A stretch of DNA of 27,743 bases, taken from positions 1 to 27,743 of the IMG/VR virus record IMGVR_UViG_3300025120_000416. One strand, given 5' to 3'. This stretch comes from a virus. Within the stretch, counting starts at the first letter, position 1; every line of letters starts with the position of its first letter. A program made the translations under genes and the position numbers. Below are positions 4,210-25,806 of this stretch, one piece after another. A model generated the notes under the pieces. The model did not search any database, was not told the DNA's origin, and saw only the letters and a program-made list of their open reading frames with translations.

Positions 4210-5679
4210 ATGAGTTTAAGTCCTCAATTTGGTAGTTTAGTCCCTTCGCAGTCGCAAGAGATTTTAAACAGTAACTACCTACAATTTAACGGTGGAGCTG
4301 GAGCAGGCGATACAAACACGTTCGCTCAACAGTATTTACCAGAAATTTATGAACAAGAAGTAGAGCGTTATGGAAACAGAACGTTATCTGGATTCTTAAG
4401 AATGGTTGGCGCTGAAATGCCAATGACAAGTGATCAAGTAATTTGGTCTGAGCAAAATAGATTACATATATCTTATCAAGGTGTTGCAGTAGCAAATGCT
4501 GCTGGTACCACTAGTACTATTACTTTATTCGTAGCTGGAACAGCTGGATTACAGAATGTTATCTCAATCAATGATACTATTGTATTTTTAAATCCTGCAA
4601 CAGGAGAAGAAAGTAAAGCATTAGTAACTGATTCTGGAGCCTACGCTGGATCTGGTCTTGCTGCAACTGATATTGTAGTACAGCCTTTTGATAATGTTCA
4701 AATTACTGCAGCTCTTGCAGCAGTTGGATGTAAAGTGTTTGTATACGGTTCTCAATACCAAAAAGGTCAAAGCATGAATGCTGCTTTTGCTGCTGGTGGA
4801 GCGAATCAAGCACGTATATCTGTTGAACCTACTTTAACTCAATTTTCTAACTCTCCTATTATATTAAGAAGCCAATACGTAGTTAGTGGTTCTGATATGG
4901 CACAAATTGGATGGGTAGAAGTTGCAACTGAAGATGGAACATCTGGGTACTTATGGTATTTAAAAGCTGAATCTGAAACAAGATTACGTTTTGAAGACTA
5001 TTTAGAAATGAGTATGGTAGAAGCTGAGTACAATCAATTACCTGCTGTACCAACAACATCTCCAGGATCTGAAGGTTTATTCTCTGCTATTCAAACACGT
5101 GGAAACGTAGAAGTAGGATTTACTGCTGCTGCTGGTTTAGATGAGTTTGATGCTATTTTAAAGAACTTAGATACTCAAGGAGCTATTGAAGAAAACATGT
5201 TATTTTTACAAAGACAAACATCTTTGGACTTTGACGATATGTTAGCTTCTATTTCTGGTGGATTCGCTGGAGGTACTGCTTTTGGATTATTTGAAAATTC
5301 TGAGGAAATGGCTTTAAATTTAGGTTTCTCTGGTTTCAGAAGAGGTTCTTACGACTTCTACAAGACTGACTGGAAATACTTAAACGATGCGTCAACTCGT
5401 GGAGGAATCAATGGTATCAACTCTGTTGAAGGAGTATTAGTACCTGCTGGAACTTCTACAGTTTATGATCAAGTATTAGGAACTAACATCAGAAGACCTT
5501 TCTTACACGTAAGATATAGAGCTTCTCAATCAGATGATAGAAGAATGAAATCTTGGTTAACTGGTTCTGCTGGTGGTGCTGCAACATCTACTTTAGATGC
5601 TATGGAAGTAAACTTCCTATCTGAAAGATGTTTGATCACTCAAGCTGCTAACAACTTTGTATTATTCAAAGGAATCTAA
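4210..5679 (+). CDS. Major capsid protein
   Basis: The 489-residue product probably builds the icosahedral shell, presumably with an HK97-type fold. Evidence is its place after portal and scaffold, its size, and its Gly/Ala/Ser/Thr-rich sequence. The string DQVIWSEQNRLHISY (residues 77-91) resembles capsid proteins of uncultured marine phages as I recall them. Codon use supports very high expression: from 5320 to the stop, Ile is ATC in 5 of 5 codons, Phe TTC in 6 of 7 and Asn AAC in 6 of 7, while neighbouring genes favour ATA, TTT and AAT. It is followed 15 bases later by a strong intrinsic terminator, which fits an abundant transcript ending here. No N-terminal prohead-protease region is evident. 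The leader is AAAAATTATTATTATG with no Shine-Dalgarno sequence. Confidence 0.85.
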   Translation: MSLSPQFGSLVPSQSQEILNSNYLQFNGGAGAGDTNTFAQQYLPEIYEQEVERYGNRTLSGFLRMVGAEMPMTSDQVIWSEQNRLHISYQGVAVANAAGTTSTITLFVAGTAGLQNVISINDTIVFLNPATGEESKALVTDSGAYAGSGLAATDIVVQPFDNVQITAALAAVGCKVFVYGSQYQKGQSMNAAFAAGGANQARISVEPTLTQFSNSPIILRSQYVVSGSDMAQIGWVEVATEDGTSGYLWYLKAESETRLRFEDYLEMSMVEAEYNQLPAVPTTSPGSEGLFSAIQTRGNVEVGFTAAAGLDEFDAILKNLDTQGAIEENMLFLQRQTSLDFDDMLASISGGFAGGTAFGLFENSEEMALNLGFSGFRRGSYDFYKTDWKYLNDASTRGGINGINSVEGVLVPAGTSTVYDQVLGTNIRRPFLHVRYRASQSDDRRMKSWLTGSAGGAATSTLDAMEVNFLSERCLITQAANNFVLFKGI

Positions 5680-7656: not shown

Positions 7657-8868
7657 ATGGGATTAATAACTGAAAGTAATCAGCAGTACTATGCGGGCTC
7701 TCAAAGGTTTCTATCTGCGGCTGGAAATAATCAAACATTTACAACTACATTCGATACTGAATTAGTATTAGGTAGTTATGATCCTACACAAACTGACTAC
7801 GCTTTAAATAACTTCAAACTATATACAGCTGCACCGGGTGTTTTGACATACACCGAGTATGTACTAAACTATAAAGTTGTTGATAACGTAATAACTATAG
7901 ACGGAAACTTAGCGGCTAATACAAGTGTGGTGGTTCAATTAAAATCTTTAAATGGAGGTCAATATGGAAATAGAGATGCTATTGGTGAAGCTGTGGAGAA
8001 CAACTATAATAGTTATTCTTATATAAAACTTAGAGATATTATAAATAACTTTTTAGTAGCTTATGTAGGAACTGGTAAATTAATACCAAGCTGCAAAAGA
8101 ACCGACATTATATTCCATGCTAAACGAGGTTTACAGGAATTTAGTTATGATACATTAAATAGTATAAAATCTCAAGAGCTAAATATTCCTTCTAGCCTAA
8201 GCGTTGTTATACCTCAAGACTACGTAAACTATGTTAAGATGTCATGGATAGATCATTTAGGTGTAAAAAGACCTATATATCCAGCTAACAATTTAACTAT
8301 AAATCCTTTTTCAACACCATTACAAGATAATTTAGGCTTGCCCACGCAGGATAATTTTGGCGAAAATTTAGAAGGAACTTCAATAACAGAAGAAAGATGG
8401 GCTAAGGCTAATGATAATTTAATAGACGGTAGAGAAATTATTGACAATTCTTCTATTGCTTTTGATGCTTATGGTAGATTTAATGGAATAGATGGAGCTC
8501 TCGGTCAACAGTACGGATTAGATCCTCAATATTCTCAAGTCAACGGATGGTTTGGTATAAATCATAGAGAAGGAAAGTTTTCTTTTTCAAGTAACTTAGC
8601 TAATAAGTTAATAGTGTTAGAATACATTTCTGACGGACTTGCTTATGATTTAGACACTAAAGTTCCAAAGATGGCAGAAGAAGCTTTATATGCTCATATA
8701 AGCCACGCTGTCATAGCTTCCAGAATAAATCAACCTGAATATATAGTTAGAAGATTAAAGCAAGAGAGAAGCTCTAAATTAAGAAATGCTAAAATAAGAT
8801 TATCAAACATTAAGCTTGACGAGATAGTTCAAACAATGAGAGGTAAATCTAAATGGATTAAACACTAA
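7657..8868 (+). CDS. Putative tail adaptor protein (T7 gp11-like role)
   Basis: The 403-residue protein starts with a beta-rich module (about 1-98), including QTFTTTFDTELVLG, NNFKLYTAAPGVL and DNVITIDGNLAANTSVVVQL. A domain follows with YIKLRDIINNFLVAYVG (about 122-138), CKRTDIIFHAKRGLQEFSYD (147-166), and PSSLSVVIPQDYVNYVKMSW, then GVKRPIYP. The second part resembles the adaptor or tail-tubular-A-like protein of podoviruses, where helices pack onto the portal and the 'P.DYV.' strand precedes a tail-binding region. The C-terminus is basic and helical (RRLKQERSSKLRNAKIRL), also usual for adaptors. Context between connector and nozzle genes supports this. A six-base gap leads to the nozzle gene. 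Assignment is by pattern and position. Confidence 0.55.
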   Translation: MGLITESNQQYYAGSQRFLSAAGNNQTFTTTFDTELVLGSYDPTQTDYALNNFKLYTAAPGVLTYTEYVLNYKVVDNVITIDGNLAANTSVVVQLKSLNGGQYGNRDAIGEAVENNYNSYSYIKLRDIINNFLVAYVGTGKLIPSCKRTDIIFHAKRGLQEFSYDTLNSIKSQELNIPSSLSVVIPQDYVNYVKMSWIDHLGVKRPIYPANNLTINPFSTPLQDNLGLPTQDNFGENLEGTSITEERWAKANDNLIDGREIIDNSSIAFDAYGRFNGIDGALGQQYGLDPQYSQVNGWFGINHREGKFSFSSNLANKLIVLEYISDGLAYDLDTKVPKMAEEALYAHISHAVIASRINQPEYIVRRLKQERSSKLRNAKIRLSNIKLDEIVQTMRGKSKWIKH

Positions 8869-8874
8869 AATTAA

Positions 8875-11800
8875 ATGGCTGAAGTTAAAAATACTTTTCT
8901 TAAGGGGAAAATGAACCAAGATCTTGACTCTCGTATTGTGCCTAATGGTGAATATAGAGAAGCTAGAAACTTATCTATAAGTAGATCAGAAGGGTCTACA
9001 GTGGGTGAGTTTGAAAATGTTTTAGGTAATATAGCTATATCTAGTTTAACCTCCATAGGTGCACCTGCAACAACAGAAATAATCGGTAAATTTATTGACG
9101 AGAATTCAAACATGGCTTATTTTATGGCTACTGATTGGAATCCCGGTGATGAGTCTAGAGCTCCGGGAACAGCTAAGTGTTATATAGTAAGTGTTGACTT
9201 GTCTTCAACAAACCCACCTTTAATATTGGTTCAAGGTAGTTTTTTAAATTTTAATCAAGGTTATATAATAACCGGTATAAATTTAATTGAAAACCTATTG
9301 TTTTGGACAGACAATTTAAACCAACCAAGAAAAATAAACATTTCTCTTGCGACTAGTAATTCATCACATTATACAACAGAAGATCAAATATCTGTAGCTA
9401 AATATGCTCCCTTTGAGCCAATACTAGCTATGGAAAGAGTACAAACAACTTTAAATGGAGACGTTACAGCTTCCGATACTATAGTTGTAGCAGATTCTAC
9501 TGGTATAAAAGTAGGTGATATTGTTACTGACAAAGTAAAAATAGGTGCACAACAAATATTAGAATTAGTTACAGTTATAGGTATACCTACGGCAACTGCT
9601 CCTGTTTTACCAAATACATTAACATTATCTACTCCTGTCACTATAATAGATACTACTCCCTTGGATTTTAGTAGACCCTCTATGACTAATAAGAATAGAT
9701 TATTTATGTCTAATCATTCTTCTGGAGCCGTCACTATAGCAGGTGGAGGAACCCCTAATCCAATAACAGCTATATACACTATAAGCGGAACTGGAGCTGA
9801 TGTTGATTTTTTATACAGCGGTAATAACGGAATACCTAAGGTAGGTGATTTAGTTACTGGACCAGGAATATCTGCTGATACTAGAGTTTCTTTTGTTGAA
9901 GTTTTAGACAATGACGCGGTTGCACCTGCTCAATCTATATCCATAAAGCTAAATAAAGAAACTACAACTGCTGGTTCAGATGTTATATCGATAAGTGACA
10001 ATCCTGATTACGATGCTAACTGGAAAGGTGATGATAACTTTTTAGAGGATAAGTTTGTAAGATTTAGTTATAGGTTTAAATTTGAAGATAATGAATATTC
10101 TTTAATGGCGCCCTTTAGTCAACCTATGTTTATACCAAAACAATACAGTCAATTTGGAGGAGGGTTGTTATCTCCTACAGAAGATATGGACGACGCTTAT
10201 AAATCTACAATAGTTGCTTGGTTTGAAAATAATATAAACAACATATTGCTAAGAATTCCAGTAATGGAAAGTACACCGGCAAATTTGATCAGTAGCTTTA
10301 AAATAACAGACATTGATATATTATATAAAGAGTCTGATGCTTTAGCAGTAAAAGTACTTGAAACAGTGCAATTGTCTAATCCATCACCTACTTTTTCCTC
10401 AATAGCATTTCACGATGCTATTCACGGTATAAATACTAAATACTTTTTAGACTACGATTATAGCTCTACGAAACCATATAAAACACTACCTAGTAATCAA
10501 GTAACTAGGGTATCGGATAGAGTACCAGTAAGAGCTCTTGCCCAAGAAGTTATAGGTAACAGAGTAGTTTATGGAAATTACTTAGACAGACATACAGGGC
10601 CTAACTCAATAGCTTTTAGCGCAAACGCTAGTAACAAATCTATAAAGTTTGATAATTATACTCAATTTCCAAAACATCAATTAAAACAAAACAGAACATA
10701 TCAAGTAGGTTTTGTGCTTTCAGATAGGTACGGTAGACAATCAGACGTTATTTTATCATCTTACGACAATGTTCCAGGTGTATCTGGATCTACTGTTTTT
10801 AATCCCTATAATAACTTAGCTGAGCAAACCGCTACTCCAATTTTAGATTGGTTAGGAGATGCTTTAGTAGTTACTCTAAATGAAGCTGTGCAATCAACCT
10901 ATAATCCGGCTACAGGAACCCCTGGTATATATTCTATTAATAATCCTTTAGGTTGGTTTTCTTATAAAATAGTAGTTAAACAGACTGAACAAGAATATTA
11001 CAATGTTTATTTACCTGGATTTGTAAATGGATATCCTGTAATTGAAAACAATGAAAGAAACAAAAGTTTTTTTACAACTCTTTTAGGTGATAATGTAAAT
11101 AAAATACCACGTAATTTACAGGAAGTAGGCCCTAATGATAGAGATTTTGGAAGTGATGAAGGTTTATATATTAGAGTTAATAATCCGCTTATAGATAATA
11201 AACCGCTCGCAGCATATCCAAAAACTGAAGCTTGGAATGCTCAGTATTATCCAGCTGGAATAGAGCAAGAGGTTATACAAATAGCTACGGTTAGAGACAT
11301 GGAAATACAGGCTATACCTTTTAAACCACTTACAACTAAAGCGGGAGAATATGGCGAATCTGATATATTGCAAACATATAATTACTTTGGGGGTATAGTA
11401 GCTGATGGAATAGAAAGTGTTAACGAAACGCCAGAACCTACAGGTAGAATACCCTGGGGTAAAACAGGGCCAGATGCACCTTTATATAGTGCAGATTCAA
11501 ATCCTTTTGTTATAAAAGGTAATCAATCAGAAAATATAAACAACCCAATAGGCGCTTATGTTACTACTTTTTCTGTAAATACTCCTCCTTCGCCTCCTAC
11601 GGCTGTATACTCTATGGTGCCTTTTTTATCCGTAGCCGAAACAGAACCAGTTGAATCTTTGTTAGATGTATTTTTTGAAACATCGTTATCTGGAAATTTA
11701 GCAGAATTAAATGCTTTAGTTGATTCTCAATATGGAGGATTAACAAGTTCTAATTTCGCGGCTGCTGACTTTTTTGAAAATGCAACAACCTCAACTATAG

Positions 11801-16953: not shown

Positions 16954-19900
16954 ATGTATATAGATTTAGAAACAGGAGTTAGAGTAAGCGAGGCTGACAT
17001 GCAAAATTATGCCGATCAAGAAGGTTTAGATATTGAAGAATACATAAGCTTAATGGGGTTTACTTTAGAATCAGATAACAATACTTCTGAGTCTGCAGAT
17101 ACTAGTTCCGCAGATTTACTTGACCCAACAACTTTTCAAAAAGACGCTGCAGCGGATGCAGATGTGGTGTCTCAACCAATGATAGCATCACAAGCGGAGA
17201 ATGTAACACTAGAAGATACGGAATTAGAGCTGGTAGATACTTCTTTGGATTCACTAGATCCATTAGATGATTACTATGTTACTGTTGAAGATTTAAGGCA
17301 GGATGAAGAAGATGCTTCTCCATCATTAAATAAAAAACTAGCCGGTATTGGTATATCTACCACACAAGGAACTTCATTTGGAAGTCTTGATGCTTTAAAC
17401 TTTGAAAACTCCGTAGATGATGAAATGGAATTAGGAGGAGTAGCAACGAGGTTTGTGGGTGATTTAATAGGTAAGCCAACTAAGATATTTTCAGCTATAG
17501 GAATTGGATCAAATAAAACAGACGAAGAGCTAGCTGCTGCAGCTGCTGAAATAAATGAATATATAAAACTAAAAGCAGATACTAATTTTTTAGACAAAGC
17601 TAAAAAAAGAAGTGGTGATGCTTACGAAAAATATGAAGAAACTTTAAAAGCTCCTGAATTAACAGAAGAAGAGCTGCAATCTTCTATGAAAAAAGATTTG
17701 GTTTCTAAATTTTCTGAAATACAAAGAAGCGAGCTGTCTAATATTACTGAGGGCCCAAAAAATGAAATAGTAGGAGTAAAACAAACGGACGCTACTGTTG
17801 ATCAATTTGAAAACAAAAAAGAATTTCAAGCTTATAATCAATGGAAAAAAGATGGTTATATTCCTGATTTTTCAGAAAACGAAACGCTTTTTTATGATTC
17901 AGAAAGAAAACAAAAATATGCTTTAGACGCATCGCTTAGGTACGCTAGCGACTTGTCCGTAGAAGGGCGTATGGACGTACTAGCTTTAGCCGCAAACGAT
18001 GAAAAAAGACTTAATAATTTTCAAGAAATATCTAATAATTATTTTAAAACAGAGGAATCTTTAAAAAACGCCATTAAAGAATATAAACTCAACCCAACAC
18101 AAGATAACTACAGGGTGGCTACCGCTATAGAAGTAGATTATTTACAAAAACAAGGAGATATACAATCTTTACAAGGCAAATTAAAAAAAGATGGAGTTTT
18201 TGAAAAAAGCAAAACAGTTCCTCTTGCTTTAATGGATTTTAACAAGGATTACAATAGAATAAAACAACTTAGGACATCATTCAAATCTACTATAGGGAGT
18301 GTAACATACGCAGGAGCAGCCTTAGCTACTTTAGCTGGTCAAGTTAATAATCCAGGAGCGATAGCAGTTGCACTAAGTGGGCCGGAGTCAACAAGTGCAA
18401 AAATAGAAAATGTCACTGGATTAGTTTCTTTAGGTGAGGATCTTCAAAAAGAAACTGAAAATTTTCAAAGAGCAATTGCTGTTGATGAAATTAACAGTGT
18501 AAGCGATGCCGGTAAATGGGTTGCTGGATCTTCAGTAAATTTAATACCATCTTTAGCTATGGCTATGACTGGCCCTGCAGCTATGCCTTTATTTTTCTTA
18601 TCCGGATCAGGGAGCAAAGGTATGGAAATGGCTGTTAGCAGAAAAAATTCTAGCGAAAGAATGATTAAAAATAAGCAATTTTTAATTGATAATCCAGATG
18701 CAGATTCTTTTACTGTAATGTCTTTAGAAAAAGAAATGGCTGAAGACGCTAAAATATTAGGCATATCCGAATGGCAATCTTTAGGTATACAAGCTCTTTA
18801 CGGAATAGCAGAGGTAGCTATGGAAAAAGTAGGTACTATGACTCTGTTGAAAAATTTAAAAAACGGAACAAAAATGCTTTCTCCTACTACCGTAAAAGAG
18901 GGGTTTAAATTTTTAGGTAACGGATTAAAAGAAGTTGGAAAAGGAATAAGAGTAGAAGGAGGTTCCGAATTTGGAACAACAGTTGCGCAAAATTTTGGTG
19001 ATATATTTATATTAGGAGAAGACAAAAACTTATTTGAAGGCGGGTTAGAATCTTTTGCACAAGGAGCTTTAATGGGTGGCGCTATGAATAGTGTTGGCGT
19101 AGCTAAAGGTTTAAGGCAAGGATATATTAGCGTTTTAGCTAGTAAAAAAGAATCAGCAAAACTTAAGGAAAACTTAAATGCTTTAAGAAAGCTTACCAAT
19201 CAGCCAGAAATACAAAGCTGGCTAGATTTAAAAAATTTAAATTTAAAGTTGCCTAAAGAAACGCAATCTGTTGTAGATGCTATAACTCTGGATATGCAGA
19301 AAACCGAAGAAGGTGTCATGTTTAAATTAGGAAGCACTTTAAGTATTGACCAAGCTTATAAAGTAGAAGAGGTTAATAGAAAAATGCGATTACTTAATAA
19401 ACAATTAATTGAAGCTTCGACTAACCCTAGCATAAAAGCTGCTGAGCTAACTCAAATAGAATCTCAACTTAGAACTCAATTTGAAGGATTAGCTAAGGAG
19501 CGTGAACAATTGTTATCAGATAGTGTTGATATAAAACAAACTAAAGAAAGCTTTGTTGACCAAAACGTGTCTTTAGACAGTACATTAGGTTATTCTTTTT
19601 ATACTCAATCAATGCTGAACGAAAGCGTAAAATCCGTAATTGGTAATTATAGCAACCTATCACCAGAGGCAAATCAAGCAGGTCTGGACGCAGCAAAAAA
19701 AGCTTTAATAAAAGAAGGAAGCAAAAATCCTTCTGTTAAAGAAATTAAAGACAAAGCTTTAGAAGAATACATTGACAACACTTATAAAAAGAAGATAGAA
19801 TCAGGTAGAAGTAATGCTGAAGCTTTTGCTAAACAGCAAGGTTTGGATCTTGAAATTATGTCTTTTGAAGGTAAAGATGCAGATACTGAAATTATAAAAG

Positions 19901-22900
19901 CTTTTGAAGACGCGGGTGTTGAAGGAACAGAGTTGGCTAAGCTAAAAAAAGCGGTTAAGAACGGAACCTTTGAAGGAGGAGAAATTAGTGGAACTAATAA
20001 GATAATTATTAACCTGAATGCGGCTGTAAAAAATAAACGTATAGGAATTTTTGCACACGAAGTCCTCCATAAATATGCTAAAGAAAAATACGGATCTAAT
20101 CAAGACGCGATTGACAAAGCAGGTGCAGACTTGTTGTCTTATTTAGAAAAAAACGATAAAGATTTATTTGCTAAAGTTAAATTTAGAATAGACCAAAGTT
20201 ATACAGAAAAAGATGCTGAGGGTAATGTAATAAAAGATGCAGATTATTTTGAGGAAGCAATGAATGCTATGTCTGATGTTTTAGCCGACGGTCAAGTTGT
20301 TAACGATAAATCAATGAATAAAATTAGAGTTTTTGCAAATTCATTTTTATCTAAGTTACCTGGTAAGTTTCAATTTACAGTAGATCAAGGAAGAGATGCT
20401 TACGAGTTCGTAAAAGGTTATAATAAAGAAGCTCACTTTGGAGGAGTTAAAACTCCTGATAATCCCATAGTTAGTTCTACAGATGACGATGAAAAAGCAA
20501 TTACAAAAGAAGACAAAGATAAAAAAGTATCTTTATCCGTTAGTAAAGCGCCTTTATTAGATAAAATTAATTCGCTTGTTCCACCTTCAATTACCACTCA
20601 GGAGGAATACTTTAGCCCTAAAATATTTAATGAAGTTTTTAAAGCTACAGAAGAAGGTGGTGCTATAAGTAATTATATAAAATCAAAAGCTTCAAGTAAA
20701 GAAGCGGGTATAAAAACCATAAAAAGTATTCAGGAAAGATTAACTAATTATGATCCTGCTGCAGAAAGAAAAAAAGCAGGTAATAAAGAGCCTATAACTT
20801 TTGGAGAATTTATATTTTCAAATACGCCGTTTGCAATACGTGATGCTAAAAAAGCTTTATTTAAAGAAAGCGAGGCTGCTAAGAAGAAAGCAGATTTAGA
20901 TAGCAAAGAGGTGCAAAGCAAAACAACAGAAGAAGATTCTGGGCCAACAGCAGATACTAGAAAAAAATACAAATCATTAATTTCAAATCCTAAATTAATA
21001 CCTAGTTTTGTTTTAACTGAAATAAAAACAAAGCTTGCTGATGTAGTTTCAAAATTAACGTCGAAACTGTCTACAAGACCTAAGGGTAAAAACAAACAAA
21101 CAACACCGTTAATAGAAGAAATTAAAAAAGCTATTGGTAAAGTTGTAGGAGACGCAACAGCTTTACCTAAGCAGATAATAAATCGAATGGGTAATCCTAA
21201 AGATGGATCCTATCAAAAGTTTTTAATAGACAATAAAAAATCTATTTTAGAAAACATGACGACCACTTATTTGATGACAGCTATACCCGCTGCTGTAGAA
21301 AAATCTGTGGGGGGAGCTTATATCTTAGATAAAAACGGTAAAAGAAAAAAAGATAGCAACAATAATGATATTTTTGATCCAAAGTTTGTTCCTTATCCAG
21401 AGTGGGTAGGTAAAGAAATTGATCGTGAAAAAGTTTCTACTAATAAAAAAGGAGGAACATCTGGTAATCAAATTGTTAGAAGAGCTATTCAAGTAGAAGT
21501 AGATGGTAAATTTGAAGACAGCATTACTGACAAAGACTTTGTAGCAAATTTTGTTGGTAGTGATGGAAAAGTTATACGTGGAAAAAGAGAATCACTAGGA
21601 AAAGCTATAGCGGAGGAAGCCGGTTTTGAAGTGTTAACTAAAGAGCTAGCAAATGAAAACAGTGACATAAGAAAAGCTTTTAAAGGTAATCAAGAAGCCT
21701 TAGGTGTAGTATTAGCAGATAATTTTGTACAACAGTTATCTAGGGATGCAGAAAGAGGCACTGTTAAGTTTAGTAAAACTTTAAATAACTTAGAAAGGGT
21801 TAACTTTTTTGTTGAAGAAATTAATACTTCTAGGTTTAAGCAAACATTATCAGCTACAAAAGACTTAAATAAAGCAATTAAAATACACTTTAAAGACGAT
21901 TTTACAAGACCAGAGCTTCGTAATATAGCGAAAGAAGTTGCAAAAAATAATTTAGTTAAAAACTTTGAATTTCAAATAGAAAAAGTAGGTATAGAAAAAG
22001 CTACAGATATGGTTGTGGATTTTGCAGGGGAAGTTTTATTTACACCCTCGGAATATAAAACTATAATGGCGAAATATGGTTTAGAAAGCAACTACAACTT
22101 AAGAAGTTTGCAAGCTGTAAATGAAGGTAGGCTAGCTGCGCTGTGGTTAAAAGACAAAATGGAAGAATCTAGGTTTGTTAGGGGGTTTTATAGAGCATTA
22201 TCTGGTCCAGCAAGATTAGCTGGATTTGAATTAAAAACCGATCCTGATGGAATTATAGTTTTAGATTCGGATGTAAAAAAAGAAGTTAAAAATCCTAGAA
22301 ATAGCTTGTTTAATAGTGTTAAAGACATTATGAAAGCTTTAAATATAAAGTCGACTAAAGGAGATTTTAGAGACACTGAGCAAACAAGAAAAAATTGGTG
22401 GTTCAGTAAAAACTTTAATAAACTAGATGAACAAGGCAAAAAAGATTATTTACAGAAACTATATAACGAGGGACAACTAGATAAAGAAATTATGCTAGAA
22501 GCAATGGAACTACTAAGAGAAGGGTATGCTAACGGGGATATATCTTTGACTGGTGTACAAATGCTTTGGGTAGGACAATTTGCGGATATGACCGGTGTTG
22601 GTAAAGCTGCAGGAGCACCTAGAATGATACCAGTAATTCCTATGCCTGATGGCACTTTCAAAATAGCAACCGATGCGGATTTAGTAAAAGCAGGATTAGC
22701 TTACTCTAAGGACCCTTATGTATTAGAGCACATGATACCCGCTAAAGAAATAGCTACTTTGTCTTTACAGTATATACTATCGGGAGATGCTCAAATTAAA
22801 AAAGAATTACTTAAAAAATTAGAGAATTACGATACAAGCATACTACCAAAAAAATTAGACGATAAACTTAAAAAAGAAAGAGGTACTCAAGAAATGATGG

Positions 22901-25806
22901 GTATTGATTTTAAAACGGGAGACTCTCCTGTTGACACTAGATATGATGGGCTTGGTATTATGTTTTACGATGCTAAAACCGACACTTTTGTAGGATCCCC
23001 TATTAAATATTCAAAACCTGAATTAACAAAAGTTAAAACAGATCAGAAAGCTATTGAAAACGGAAGGTCTATTAGTTGGTCTAAGTCACCTAAAAAAATA
23101 CGTGTATTTGATTTTGATGATACTTTAGCTAGAACTAAAAGCAATGTGTTATATACAATGCCAGATGGTACTAAAGGAAAAATAGATGCCGCTACATTTG
23201 CTAAGGATGCCGTTAAGATGGAAGCTGAAGGCGCTATATTTGATTTTAGTGAATTTAGTAAAGTAATGGACGGCAAGAAAGGTCCATTGTTTGAAGTGGC
23301 TAAAAAAATAGCGGATGCTAGAGGTACTGAAGATGTATTTGTTTTGACCGCAAGACCTCAAGATGCTGCAGGTCCAATACAAGAATTCTTAAAAAGCTTA
23401 GGTTTAAGTATACCTTTAAAAAATATTACCGGATTAGGTGATGGTAACGCTAAAGCAAAAGCTGATTGGATGATAGGTAAAGTAGCGGAAGGCTATAATG
23501 ATTTTTATTTTGCAGATGATGCTATTAAAAATGTTAAAGCTGTTAAAGATGTATTTGATACTTTTGATATTAAAGGTAAAGTTCAACAAGCTAAAGTTAA
23601 ATTTAGTAAAGGTTTAGATAAAGGGTTCAATGATATGATTGAGCGCCAGACTGGTACAGAATCTTTTAAAGAATTTTCTAAAGGTGTAGCGCAAAGAAGA
23701 GGTAAAAAAGTTGGTAAGTTTAAAATATTTGTTTCACCATCTGCTGAAGATTTTAGAGGATTAACTCAATACAAATTTGCGGGTAAAGGTAAGCAAGGTG
23801 AAGCTGATCAAAAATTCTTTGAAGAAGCATTAATGGATCCTTACTTTAAAGGTGTTGCTGCAGTAGAAGCCGCAAGAGAAACAATAAAGAACGATACTAA
23901 AGCTCTTTTTAAAATATTTAAACCTGTTAAAAAGAAACTAAACAAACTAGTTCCAGGTATTGATTTTACTTATGACGGGGCTGTTCGTGTTTATCTTTGG
24001 AATAAAGCAGGTATAGAAATACCAGGACTTACTAAAAGAGATAACAAAAAATTAAATGACGCTATAGCAAATGACCCTGAGCTTAGTGCTTTTGCAGATG
24101 CTTTATTACTAGTATCTAAACAAGACACATGGCCTGCTCCTACAGAGTACTGGGAAGCAAAAACAACTTTAAGTGACTTAAATACTTTAACTGAAAAAAC
24201 AAACAGAAAAGAGTACCTAACAGAGTTTATTGAAAACGTTGATATTATATTTAGCGAAAAGAATTTAAATAAAGTGGAAGCTCTATACGGTAAAGCATCT
24301 AGAGTAGCTATTGAAAACGCTATATATGCTATGAAGACAGGTAGTAATAGTCCTAATCAAAGTGGCGATGGCATAACAAATAGATGGCTAAATTGGGTAA
24401 ACAACTCTATAGGTACAATAATGTTCTTCAATAGAAGATCAGCATTGTTACAATTAACTTCTGCAACAAACTTTTTAAACTGGTCAGATAATAATCCAGC
24501 CAAAGCAGCATTAGCATTCGCTAATCAACCTCAATATTGGAAAGATTGGGTAATGATATTCAATTCAGATAAATTAAAACAACGTAGAAGTGGTTTAAAA
24601 TCCGATGTACAAGAATCTGAAATAGCTAACGCAGCTAAAAATACGGAAGATAAAATAGGTTCAATTATAGCTTACTTGTTAAAAATAGGTTTTGCACCAA
24701 CACAGATAGCGGATAGTATTGCTATATCTTCAGGTGGTGCTACTTTTTATAGAAATAGAGTTAATACTTATAAAAAGCAAGGTTTAGATGTAAAAGAAGC
24801 AGAAACAAAAGCTTTTGAAGATATGAGTAAGCTTTCTGACGTAGCACAGCAATCAGGTGATCCTGCTTTAGTGTCTCAACAACAGCGAAGCATTGCAGGG
24901 CGTCTTATCTTATCTTTTCAGAACACGACTATGCAATACACTAGATTAATGAAAAAATCTGGCCAGGATCTTATAAACAGACGAGGGGACGATAAAACAA
25001 ATATATCTAAGATACTGTATTATGGAGCTTTGATGAATTTTATATTTAACGCACTATCTCAGACTGCATTTGCATTAATACCTGGTTTTGATGAGGAAGA
25101 AGAGGAAGATAAAGTTAAAAGAGATGAAAAACTTGAAGAAAAAGCATCTAGAGTTTTAAATGGTATGGCAGATTCTATTATCAGAGGTACTGGTATATAT
25201 GGAGCTATTGTCACTACTATAAAAAATACATACAATACTTGGAAAAGAGAGGCTGATAAAGGTTTTAAAGGTGATCAAGCTAAAACACTTCTTGAAGCAG
25301 CTAACGTATCGCCGGCTATAGGATCTAAGCTTAGAAAAATATATTCAGCAATACAGGCTTACCAATTTGATAAAGCAGTAATGGAAAAACATCCATGGAG
25401 TGTGACTATAGACGGTAAGTTTAATCCTTCTGCAACATATAGTGTAATTGGAAATGTAGCGTCAGCAACTCTTAATTTACCTTTAGATAGGGCTTTAGCA
25501 GAAGCTAGAGGTGTAGCTGAAATGTTTGATAATAGAAATAGTGAAATGCAAAGAATAGCATTAGCTTTAGGGTGGAGAACTTGGAACGTAGGTGCTAAAA
25601 ATGAAGAGTTTGATCTTATAAAAATGGAAGCTAAGCAAGCTAAGAAAGATAAAAAAGCAAAAGAAAAGCAAGACTATAAAGATTACTTACAAAGAGTTTT
25701 TGATAAACTAAGTTATGAACAGACTCAAGAATATTTTACAAACAAAGGAGCCGCTGCAAAAAAAGAATGGATATTAAAAATAGGTAAAGAAAAAGGTATA
25801 AAATAA
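16954..25806 (+). CDS. Giant 2950-residue virion polyprotein with metallopeptidase and HAD domains
   Basis: One uninterrupted frame covers about a third of the window. Visible in order are: an acidic N-terminus (1-200); hydrophobic segments at about 447-464 and 527-550 and a Gly-rich FAQGALMGGA patch near 701-710; an HEVLH zinc-peptidase motif (1035-1039) with a possible third ligand E1100 or E1101; an uncharacterised domain near 1380-1600 (NRMGNPKDG, TTTYLMTAIPAAVEKS); another at about 1610-2015 with LEHMIPAKE at 1924-1932; an HAD phosphatase-like domain (about 2046-2212); and a long C-terminal domain with FFNRRSALLQLTSATNFLNW (2491-2510) and a membrane-like helix (about 2686-2709). A [VI]-x-[FYWL]-S-K-like motif recurs between domains. 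It resembles the 'polyvalent proteins' of phages (Iyer and Aravind), thought to enter the cell with DNA. It is probably the large ejection protein; cleavage is inferred. Confidence 0.7.
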   Translation: MYIDLETGVRVSEADMQNYADQEGLDIEEYISLMGFTLESDNNTSESADTSSADLLDPTTFQKDAAADADVVSQPMIASQAENVTLEDTELELVDTSLDSLDPLDDYYVTVEDLRQDEEDASPSLNKKLAGIGISTTQGTSFGSLDALNFENSVDDEMELGGVATRFVGDLIGKPTKIFSAIGIGSNKTDEELAAAAAEINEYIKLKADTNFLDKAKKRSGDAYEKYEETLKAPELTEEELQSSMKKDLVSKFSEIQRSELSNITEGPKNEIVGVKQTDATVDQFENKKEFQAYNQWKKDGYIPDFSENETLFYDSERKQKYALDASLRYASDLSVEGRMDVLALAANDEKRLNNFQEISNNYFKTEESLKNAIKEYKLNPTQDNYRVATAIEVDYLQKQGDIQSLQGKLKKDGVFEKSKTVPLALMDFNKDYNRIKQLRTSFKSTIGSVTYAGAALATLAGQVNNPGAIAVALSGPESTSAKIENVTGLVSLGEDLQKETENFQRAIAVDEINSVSDAGKWVAGSSVNLIPSLAMAMTGPAAMPLFFLSGSGSKGMEMAVSRKNSSERMIKNKQFLIDNPDADSFTVMSLEKEMAEDAKILGISEWQSLGIQALYGIAEVAMEKVGTMTLLKNLKNGTKMLSPTTVKEGFKFLGNGLKEVGKGIRVEGGSEFGTTVAQNFGDIFILGEDKNLFEGGLESFAQGALMGGAMNSVGVAKGLRQGYISVLASKKESAKLKENLNALRKLTNQPEIQSWLDLKNLNLKLPKETQSVVDAITLDMQKTEEGVMFKLGSTLSIDQAYKVEEVNRKMRLLNKQLIEASTNPSIKAAELTQIESQLRTQFEGLAKEREQLLSDSVDIKQTKESFVDQNVSLDSTLGYSFYTQSMLNESVKSVIGNYSNLSPEANQAGLDAAKKALIKEGSKNPSVKEIKDKALEEYIDNTYKKKIESGRSNAEAFAKQQGLDLEIMSFEGKDADTEIIKAFEDAGVEGTELAKLKKAVKNGTFEGGEISGTNKIIINLNAAVKNKRIGIFAHEVLHKYAKEKYGSNQDAIDKAGADLLSYLEKNDKDLFAKVKFRIDQSYTEKDAEGNVIKDADYFEEAMNAMSDVLADGQVVNDKSMNKIRVFANSFLSKLPGKFQFTVDQGRDAYEFVKGYNKEAHFGGVKTPDNPIVSSTDDDEKAITKEDKDKKVSLSVSKAPLLDKINSLVPPSITTQEEYFSPKIFNEVFKATEEGGAISNYIKSKASSKEAGIKTIKSIQERLTNYDPAAERKKAGNKEPITFGEFIFSNTPFAIRDAKKALFKESEAAKKKADLDSKEVQSKTTEEDSGPTADTRKKYKSLISNPKLIPSFVLTEIKTKLADVVSKLTSKLSTRPKGKNKQTTPLIEEIKKAIGKVVGDATALPKQIINRMGNPKDGSYQKFLIDNKKSILENMTTTYLMTAIPAAVEKSVGGAYILDKNGKRKKDSNNNDIFDPKFVPYPEWVGKEIDREKVSTNKKGGTSGNQIVRRAIQVEVDGKFEDSITDKDFVANFVGSDGKVIRGKRESLGKAIAEEAGFEVLTKELANENSDIRKAFKGNQEALGVVLADNFVQQLSRDAERGTVKFSKTLNNLERVNFFVEEINTSRFKQTLSATKDLNKAIKIHFKDDFTRPELRNIAKEVAKNNLVKNFEFQIEKVGIEKATDMVVDFAGEVLFTPSEYKTIMAKYGLESNYNLRSLQAVNEGRLAALWLKDKMEESRFVRGFYRALSGPARLAGFELKTDPDGIIVLDSDVKKEVKNPRNSLFNSVKDIMKALNIKSTKGDFRDTEQTRKNWWFSKNFNKLDEQGKKDYLQKLYNEGQLDKEIMLEAMELLREGYANGDISLTGVQMLWVGQFADMTGVGKAAGAPRMIPVIPMPDGTFKIATDADLVKAGLAYSKDPYVLEHMIPAKEIATLSLQYILSGDAQIKKELLKKLENYDTSILPKKLDDKLKKERGTQEMMGIDFKTGDSPVDTRYDGLGIMFYDAKTDTFVGSPIKYSKPELTKVKTDQKAIENGRSISWSKSPKKIRVFDFDDTLARTKSNVLYTMPDGTKGKIDAATFAKDAVKMEAEGAIFDFSEFSKVMDGKKGPLFEVAKKIADARGTEDVFVLTARPQDAAGPIQEFLKSLGLSIPLKNITGLGDGNAKAKADWMIGKVAEGYNDFYFADDAIKNVKAVKDVFDTFDIKGKVQQAKVKFSKGLDKGFNDMIERQTGTESFKEFSKGVAQRRGKKVGKFKIFVSPSAEDFRGLTQYKFAGKGKQGEADQKFFEEALMDPYFKGVAAVEAARETIKNDTKALFKIFKPVKKKLNKLVPGIDFTYDGAVRVYLWNKAGIEIPGLTKRDNKKLNDAIANDPELSAFADALLLVSKQDTWPAPTEYWEAKTTLSDLNTLTEKTNRKEYLTEFIENVDIIFSEKNLNKVEALYGKASRVAIENAIYAMKTGSNSPNQSGDGITNRWLNWVNNSIGTIMFFNRRSALLQLTSATNFLNWSDNNPAKAALAFANQPQYWKDWVMIFNSDKLKQRRSGLKSDVQESEIANAAKNTEDKIGSIIAYLLKIGFAPTQIADSIAISSGGATFYRNRVNTYKKQGLDVKEAETKAFEDMSKLSDVAQQSGDPALVSQQQRSIAGRLILSFQNTTMQYTRLMKKSGQDLINRRGDDKTNISKILYYGALMNFIFNALSQTAFALIPGFDEEEEEDKVKRDEKLEEKASRVLNGMADSIIRGTGIYGAIVTTIKNTYNTWKREADKGFKGDQAKTLLEAANVSPAIGSKLRKIYSAIQAYQFDKAVMEKHPWSVTIDGKFNPSATYSVIGNVASATLNLPLDRALAEARGVAEMFDNRNSEMQRIALALGWRTWNVGAKNEEFDLIKMEAKQAKKDKKAKEKQDYKDYLQRVFDKLSYEQTQEYFTNKGAAAKKEWILKIGKEKGIK
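20056..20070 (+). other. HEVLH zinc metallopeptidase motif in the giant protein
   Basis: Residues 1035-1039 read HEVLH, preceded by the hydrophobic strand IGIFA, as in zincin active-site helices. The two His would bind zinc and Glu would be the base. A Glu pair in DYFEEAMNAMSDVL (E1100/E1101, about 62 residues on) is a candidate third ligand of a gluzincin-like arrangement. No HxxGxxH metzincin extension follows. Confidence 0.6.
23098..23596 (+). other. HAD-superfamily phosphatase-like domain in the giant protein
   Basis: Residues about 2049-2214 carry the full HAD motif series. Motif I is FDFDDTLA (D2053 nucleophile, D2055 general acid/base, T2057). Motif II is VLTAR (T2132). A candidate motif III Lys lies in AKAKADW (K2167 or K2169), and motif IV is YFADD (D2188, D2189). 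All catalytic positions are present, so a working phosphohydrolase is plausible. The substrate is unknown; nucleotide or nucleic-acid 3'-phosphate are possibilities only. Confidence 0.75.

Follow-up and report, generated by a model that had tools for sequence, protein, structure and literature searches.

The window analysed here is a 27,743 bp stretch of viral DNA (positions 1 to 27,743 of IMG/VR record IMGVR_UViG_3300025120_000416), whose structural gene run has as its last long ORF (coordinates 16954..25806; + strand, as are all features below) the gene for a giant virion-type (polyvalent) protein of 2,950 aa, syntenic with phi40:1 gp101 and elemo gp18. Residues ~490–720 (18421..19113) form a domain common to phi38:1/phi40:1 gp101, elemo gp18 and Panino CDS0069, and a HEVLH zinc-metallopeptidase-like motif at residues 1035–1039 (20056..20070) marks a candidate cis protease. 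A HAD phosphatase-like domain occupies residues 2047–2213 (23092..23592), with the motif ISWSK on its upstream side (residues 2040–2044; 23071..23085) and VKFSK on its downstream side (residues 2215–2219; 23596..23610); an additional VKFSK copy is present at residues 1604–1608 (21763..21777). The giant closes with a conserved C-terminal region lacking a Pfam name (residues 2230–2900; 23641..25653).

The earlier note proposed that a complete HAD domain is bracketed by the two motif copies, and this is borne out. The fold and motif hallmarks of the HAD superfamily are present, with a Rossmann-like core, the DxD of motif I (DFDDT, residues 2053–2057; 23110..23124) providing the nucleophile D2053 and the acid/base D2055, the motif II S/T in LTAR (residues 2131–2134; 23344..23355), the motif III lysine Lys2169 (23458..23460), and the motif IV DD in YFADD (residues 2185–2189; 23506..23520). 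An AlphaFold2 model and a second built from a more diverse HAD alignment have pLDDT values of 85.5 and 88.1 for the domain, and Foldseek matches the predicted structure to HAD phosphatases. The folded core extends from approximately residue 2048 to 2212 and residues 2216–2231 have a pLDDT below 50, placing ISWSK and VKFSK at the edges of the fold, with VKFSK opening a low-confidence linker. D2053 and D2055, together with all of the other catalytic motifs, are invariant in 80/80 metagenomic homologues, and motifs I–IV are also kept across stand-alone relatives; neither loss of the catalytic Asp in most homologues nor a non-HAD fold was encountered. Because the motifs are invariant, the structure matches HAD phosphatases, and selection is purifying (dN/dS 0.04–0.15), the domain is not a chance match, and the fold and conserved residues predict that it is a catalytically competent phosphatase. 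The same invariance argues against use of the HAD fold as a spacer or assembly domain in which catalysis is incidental, a role that its embedding in a large structural-type protein and its complete loss from some related giants might suggest, but which we regard as very improbable.

At least 208 marine viral contigs carry the domain, and searches of Pfam, NCBIfam and PDB sequences for a subfamily name gave sub-threshold matches only. Matches in bacterial and archaeal MAG contigs were considered as host genes, but most of them are short contigs of marine origin whose domain is of the same giant type, and they are read as mis-binned virus. A view of the HAD as the best-conserved segment of the giant was also considered and dropped: to control for search bias, giants were retrieved by their C-terminal region, and in these the mean identities were similar, at 62.7% for the HAD (a mean that includes three low-identity chance alignments) and 61.7% for the C-terminal region.

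Cutting at both edge motifs was proposed to free the HAD, but this does not hold as a general rule. When an [FWY]S-type motif was scored in 68 HAD-bearing giants, it was present at the upstream edge in just 17/68, at the downstream edge in 47/68, and at both in 15/68, and clades whose HAD edges have the form 'LDQPVKK...AKASKRQTF' contain neither motif. The location of ISWSK and VKFSK at the fold edges is nonetheless what would be expected if putative cleavage there released an enzyme of ~170 residues, and a HExxH motif lies within the same giant protein, as it does in 45/77 dereplicated giants (the phrog_87 metallo-protease is matched by 2/16). The 77 dereplicated giants contain 70 occurrences of the pattern [VI]K[FWY]S versus 14 in shuffles, with 37 remaining versus 14 when HAD-edge sites are removed and no enrichment of a scrambled control, although these counts include related sequences and thus overstate independence. 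Similar motifs also bracket a kinase that replaces the HAD in one relative (L152), and the repeats in the linkers that flank inserted modules of three others (L163, L165 and L093) can also reflect recombination or linker sequence. Overall we view excision at the two motifs as unlikely.

The HAD was also suggested to reside in a virion protein, and this is supported by gene position and by the shared N-terminal domain, through which packaging of the window giant itself is deduced. Phage phi40:1 gp101 is annotated in its record with 'experimental MS/MS proteomics', and like the window giant, gp101 of phi38:1 and phi40:1 (Pervagoviridae) ends the structural run as its last long ORF. Residues ~490–720 match gp101 (blastp 1.4e-6 for phi38:1; profile 6.9e-18), elemo gp18 (2e-10) and Panino CDS0069 (2e-5). 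The gp101 proteins differ from the window giant in being 1,691 aa long and aligning over the common N-terminal region only, with no alignment to the HAD. The HAD was not found in the cultured relatives elemo, Panino and phi38:1, and a tblastn search for cultured carriers found none. The homology and position relative to an MS/MS-detected protein suggest that the window giant is packaged.

The HAD behaves as an exchangeable cassette within the giant. Among giants fetched without using the HAD it is clearly present in 35/47 and absent from 12/47, and in related giants it can be missing, relocated, or split by an insertion, either a kinase of the zeta-toxin type or an ART-like domain, the site of insertion being the tip of the flap hairpin (residues ~2070–2074; 23161..23175). 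Two relatives (L044 and L054) have a HAD that is 64–69% identical and a C-terminal region that is just 31–32% identical. In L150, L151 and L168 a P-loop kinase of the phrog_505 'polynucleotide kinase'/zeta type is inserted within the HAD, and in L152 such a kinase substitutes for it; the inserted or replacing kinase matches AAA_33, Zeta_toxin and phrog_505. The window giant and its relatives are thus very long and multidomain with exchangeable enzyme modules, as are polyvalent proteins, and they share with the proteins described in the main text of Iyer et al. 2017 (PMC5512222) the HExxH metallopeptidase-like motif, ART-like and kinase modules (here in the relatives), and a proposed delivery with DNA. 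That main text differs in describing no HAD, dehalogenase or phosphatase domain, and we found in it no description of enzyme insertion into a HAD flap.

Stand-alone relatives of the HAD (30–38% identity) are present in phages with a T4-type gp23 and an S77 prohead protease, both detected in part of the record set (the records may be fragmentary). An [LI]xE site lies within 24 aa upstream of the HAD in 17/18 distinct stand-alone genes versus 1/68 giants, and most of these sites fall in a 10-residue leader, MIKLKDILxE. The leader pattern is found at the N-terminus of 29/186 ORFs in the stand-alone-HAD records versus 0/795 internal Met positions, and two of the stand-alone genes (L174 and L175) are inside a head-gene cluster; a stand-alone kinase bearing the same leader is present in L097. 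With a leader of ~10 residues ending in xE in phages having gp23 and S77, these look like the capsid-targeting sequences (CTS) of T4, with cleavage presumed from the pattern, and the T4 precedent is that internal proteins with a 10-residue CTS are ejected (PMC9026906). The stand-alone HADs therefore resemble the T4 internal head proteins Alt and IPI–III, whereas the window HAD is fused to a giant protein and has no leader, and the cargo is a HAD phosphatase. The leaders provide independent, indirect support for HAD packaging.

Two types of substrate merit consideration. The phrog_415 'polynucleotide kinase' family matches the window HAD (4.3e-6) and 5/5 stand-alone relatives tested, and activity as a nucleic-acid 3′-end phosphatase is weakly favoured. 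The HAD could act in PNKP-like end healing, as a 3′-phosphatase or 2′,3′-cyclic phosphatase, alone or together with a P-loop kinase, repairing RNA or DNA ends cut by host defence nucleases as soon as it enters. This tentative reading draws also on the family matches of the kinase that is inserted in or replaces the HAD, on the leader-bearing kinase of L097, and on the assignment of jumbo-phage HAD phosphatases to RNA repair (PMC7824862), although that kinase is equally readable as zeta-toxin-like. There is likeness to T4 PNKP (PseT) and phage PNK-type HAD phosphatases in motif I and in the phrog_415 match at the family level, but the HAD scores 13.8 bits with the NCBIfam DNA 3′-phosphatase model TIGR01664, far under its cut-off of 107.65, and hhalign to the PseT phosphatase domain covers just 32 columns, at motif I, with weak similarity beyond. 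Unlike T4 PNKP, the window HAD has no fused N-terminal kinase, and where relatives have a kinase it is nested in the HAD or replaces it. An RNA ligase was weakly matched in 3/19 records, including one from a locus that lacks the HAD, and was mostly absent in a second search run without a positive control; the lack of a ligase in most near-complete records weakens a role in tRNA sealing.

Alternatively, the HAD could act on small molecules, as a phosphatase or nucleotidase whose targets are host or signalling nucleotides, in metabolic takeover or counter-defence. The fold has a generic small cap, the closest Foldseek structures are small-molecule or protein phosphatases such as PSPH, MDP-1, HisB-N, Lem4 and Eya2, and nucleotide-degrading domains have been proposed within polyvalent proteins (PMC5512222); however, no specific nucleotidase family was matched and a PADLOC search gave no defence-family match, and we hold this to be somewhat unlikely.

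We consider it fairly likely that marine podoviruses of the Bacteroidota type carry the catalytically competent HAD as exchangeable cargo in a polyvalent ejection protein, and thus that it is probably an ejected effector. This reading is supported by the HAD fold, by catalytic residues that do not vary, by purifying selection and the exchange of modules, and by a domain and gene position in common with an MS/MS-identified virion protein. We infer that the HAD would be packaged in the virion as a portion of the giant and delivered alongside the DNA as infection starts, possibly with proteolytic release, either by a host protease or by the candidate metallopeptidase within the giant, and that inside the host it would act as a phosphatase, with a nucleic-acid end or a nucleotide as its most likely target.

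Given the cassette in the giant and the capsid-packing-like tags on the T4-like relatives, phages of two unrelated kinds seem to package a HAD in their virions and probably inject it into host cells. It is possible, at somewhat less than even confidence, that these constitute an undescribed family of virion-delivered HADs in two phage groups with two packaging routes (ejection-protein fusion and a T4-like leader), whose flap docks nested kinase or ADP-ribosyltransferase-like effectors, forming in some phages an injected nested kinase–phosphatase end-healing or effector enzyme. Enzymes injected with phage DNA work ahead of any phage gene expression and are therefore candidates for disarming first-line defences, and to our knowledge few are known beyond T4 Alt/IPI, P1 Dar and the N4-like RNA polymerase. 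If correct, a conserved phosphatase that is injected and has similar counterparts in two unrelated packaging systems would represent a new and directly testable class, and the T4-like leader and the exchange points of the giants would offer a route to listing more proteins that uncultured marine phages may inject.

Two structural proteins of the window, a 27.7-kb IMG/VR virus record, have their nearest counterparts in podoviruses of marine and aquatic Bacteroidota. These relatives of the portal (546-2951) and the major capsid protein (4210-5679) include an uncultured Manatee Spring phage, Maribacter phage Panino, the Flavobacterium elemo phages, and Cellulophaga phage phi38:1. The final long ORF in the structural run (16954-25806) codes for a giant protein of 2,950 residues, and its relative gene position is the same as that of gene 101 in phages phi38:1 and phi40:1. 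The gp101 proteins share residues ~490-720 of the giant (blastp 1.4e-6; profile 6.9e-18), as do elemo gp18 and Panino CDS0069, and the database entry for phi40:1 lists its gp101 as detected by MS/MS. Outside this region the N-terminal 2,000 residues are highly variable among the metagenomic giants, and a HAD phosphatase-like domain and the C-terminal 700 residues are common to most of them, the figure for the HAD being biased by the search. The C-terminal region (23641-25653) is strongly conserved, with up to 97% identity between contigs, and carries no family name.

An earlier note described this HAD as an intact catalytic domain between two copies of a motif, ISWSK (residues 2040-2044) and VKFSK (2215-2219), and all of its landmarks are where it placed them. 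The predicted HAD fold spans residues ~2048 to 2212, with pLDDT mostly >80, and the model is of low confidence beyond residue 2216, such that the two motifs lie at the edges of the domain. Foldseek comparison with the PDB gave HAD matches to phosphoserine phosphatase, MDP-1, HisB-N, Lem4, Eya2, and the DsGPDH HAD domain; the model is clearly of the HAD fold class but not assignable to a subfamily, because probabilities are high (mostly 0.85-1.0) whereas E-values (best 4e-4 and 1.4e-3) and TM-scores (~0.4-0.5) are modest. Searching 2.9 million viral contigs yielded 208 relatives, of which 80 were kept, and none of the 80 extracted domains departs from DFDDT, LTAR, or the Asp pair of motif IV. 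K2169 is invariant throughout the aligned giants and stand-alone relatives, and synonymous change in the HAD exceeds non-synonymous change 7- to 28-fold. The proposal of an intact HAD is thus upheld, with neither loss of the catalytic Asp nor a different fold.

The bracketing of the HAD holds in the window but is not general among the giants. Among 68 HAD-bearing giants, [FWY]S is present just upstream of the HAD in only 17, downstream in 47, and at both edges in 15. Because FSK-like sequences are enriched relative to shuffles yet flank both edges so rarely, we take the motif to be a genuine feature of the linkers between modules, and cleavage there to be putative; recombination within a shared linker would explain the motif equally well.

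Of 47 giants retrieved solely through the C-terminal region, 35 clearly have the HAD; the other 12 lack it and have unrelated sequence immediately upstream of the same junction. Two giants (L044 and L054) have the HAD near residue 900, ~700 residues ahead of the C-terminal region, and their HADs are 64-69% identical to that of the window, compared to only 31-32% for the C-terminal region, which indicates from the sequences that the HAD module has recombined. Three loci (L150, coordinates 7840-9000; L151; L168) contain a zeta-toxin/polynucleotide-kinase-like P-loop kinase within the HAD flap hairpin (AAA_33 1.6e-16, Zeta_toxin 2.6e-11), and in L152 a related kinase replaces the HAD, bracketed by IKWSK/VKFSL and IKFSKS. 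A probable NAD-dependent ADP-ribosyltransferase-like (ART) domain occupies the same flap position in the L128 (residues ~2225-2372) and L138 (~1890-2040) giants, the L128 ART-PolyVal Pfam match being weak (0.0049, below cut-off). In L163 and L165 extra modules separate the HAD from the C-terminal region, and the 'DVKxKVQQAxxxFS' linker occurs a second time; in L163 an unnamed module with 'MLDTHWGEKTNPWCVTA' (residues ~2337-2800) lies in this interval.

Like all the stand-alone relatives scanned, the HAD of the window matches phrog_415 ('polynucleotide kinase'). The kinases nested in or replacing the HAD match phrog_505, likewise annotated, and RNA repair has been assigned to jumbo-phage HADs of this general sort (PMC7824862). 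A PNKP-like end-processing phosphatase is a tentative reading, but against a strict PNKP the domain falls short of the NCBIfam cut-off, T4 PseT aligns over motif I only, and RNA ligases are scarce. A role as a small-molecule or nucleotide phosphatase is ranked just below it, equally tentatively, and the remaining weight lies with other or unknown roles.

HADs also occur outside the giants, and a search with one distant stand-alone relative (L095) found 22 further loci. A T4-type prohead protease is present in 4/9 stand-alone-HAD records and gp23 in 5/12, and in two (L174 and L175) the HAD gene is inside a head-gene cluster. An [LI]xE site lies no more than 24 residues upstream of the HAD in 17 of 18 distinct stand-alone HADs, compared to 1 of 68 giants. 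At 12 of the 14 loci L095-L108 a leader of 10 to 11 residues, M(A)IKLKDILxE, stands at the very start of the HAD gene, whereas in L097 and L105 the HAD, with a second ILKE right beside it, comes after another segment. Within these loci the leader pattern is at the first Met of 29/186 ORFs and at 0/795 internal Met codons. In T4 IPIII, capsid targeting needs no more than the first 10 residues, and processing depends on positions 8 and 10 (PMC9026906). Independently of the giants, we infer that the stand-alone HADs are probably packaged internal proteins. In a T4-like record (L112, 5995-7473), between the genes for the prohead protease and for scaffold/gp23, a HAD is joined in one protein to a Mom-like DNA modification protein (phrog_1384, 5e-31).

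Both kinds of carrier, the giant injected multidomain protein and the capsid-targeted protein of T4, are already known; neither a HAD phosphatase as cargo common to the two nor other effectors nested in a HAD flap was found in the open-access main texts read. MIKLKDILxE starts many otherwise unrelated ORFs in L095-L108, including a stand-alone P-loop kinase (L097, 46-744) in a record that also has a leader-bearing HAD. The leader could help to pick out further candidates for injection among the proteins of uncultured marine T4-like phages.
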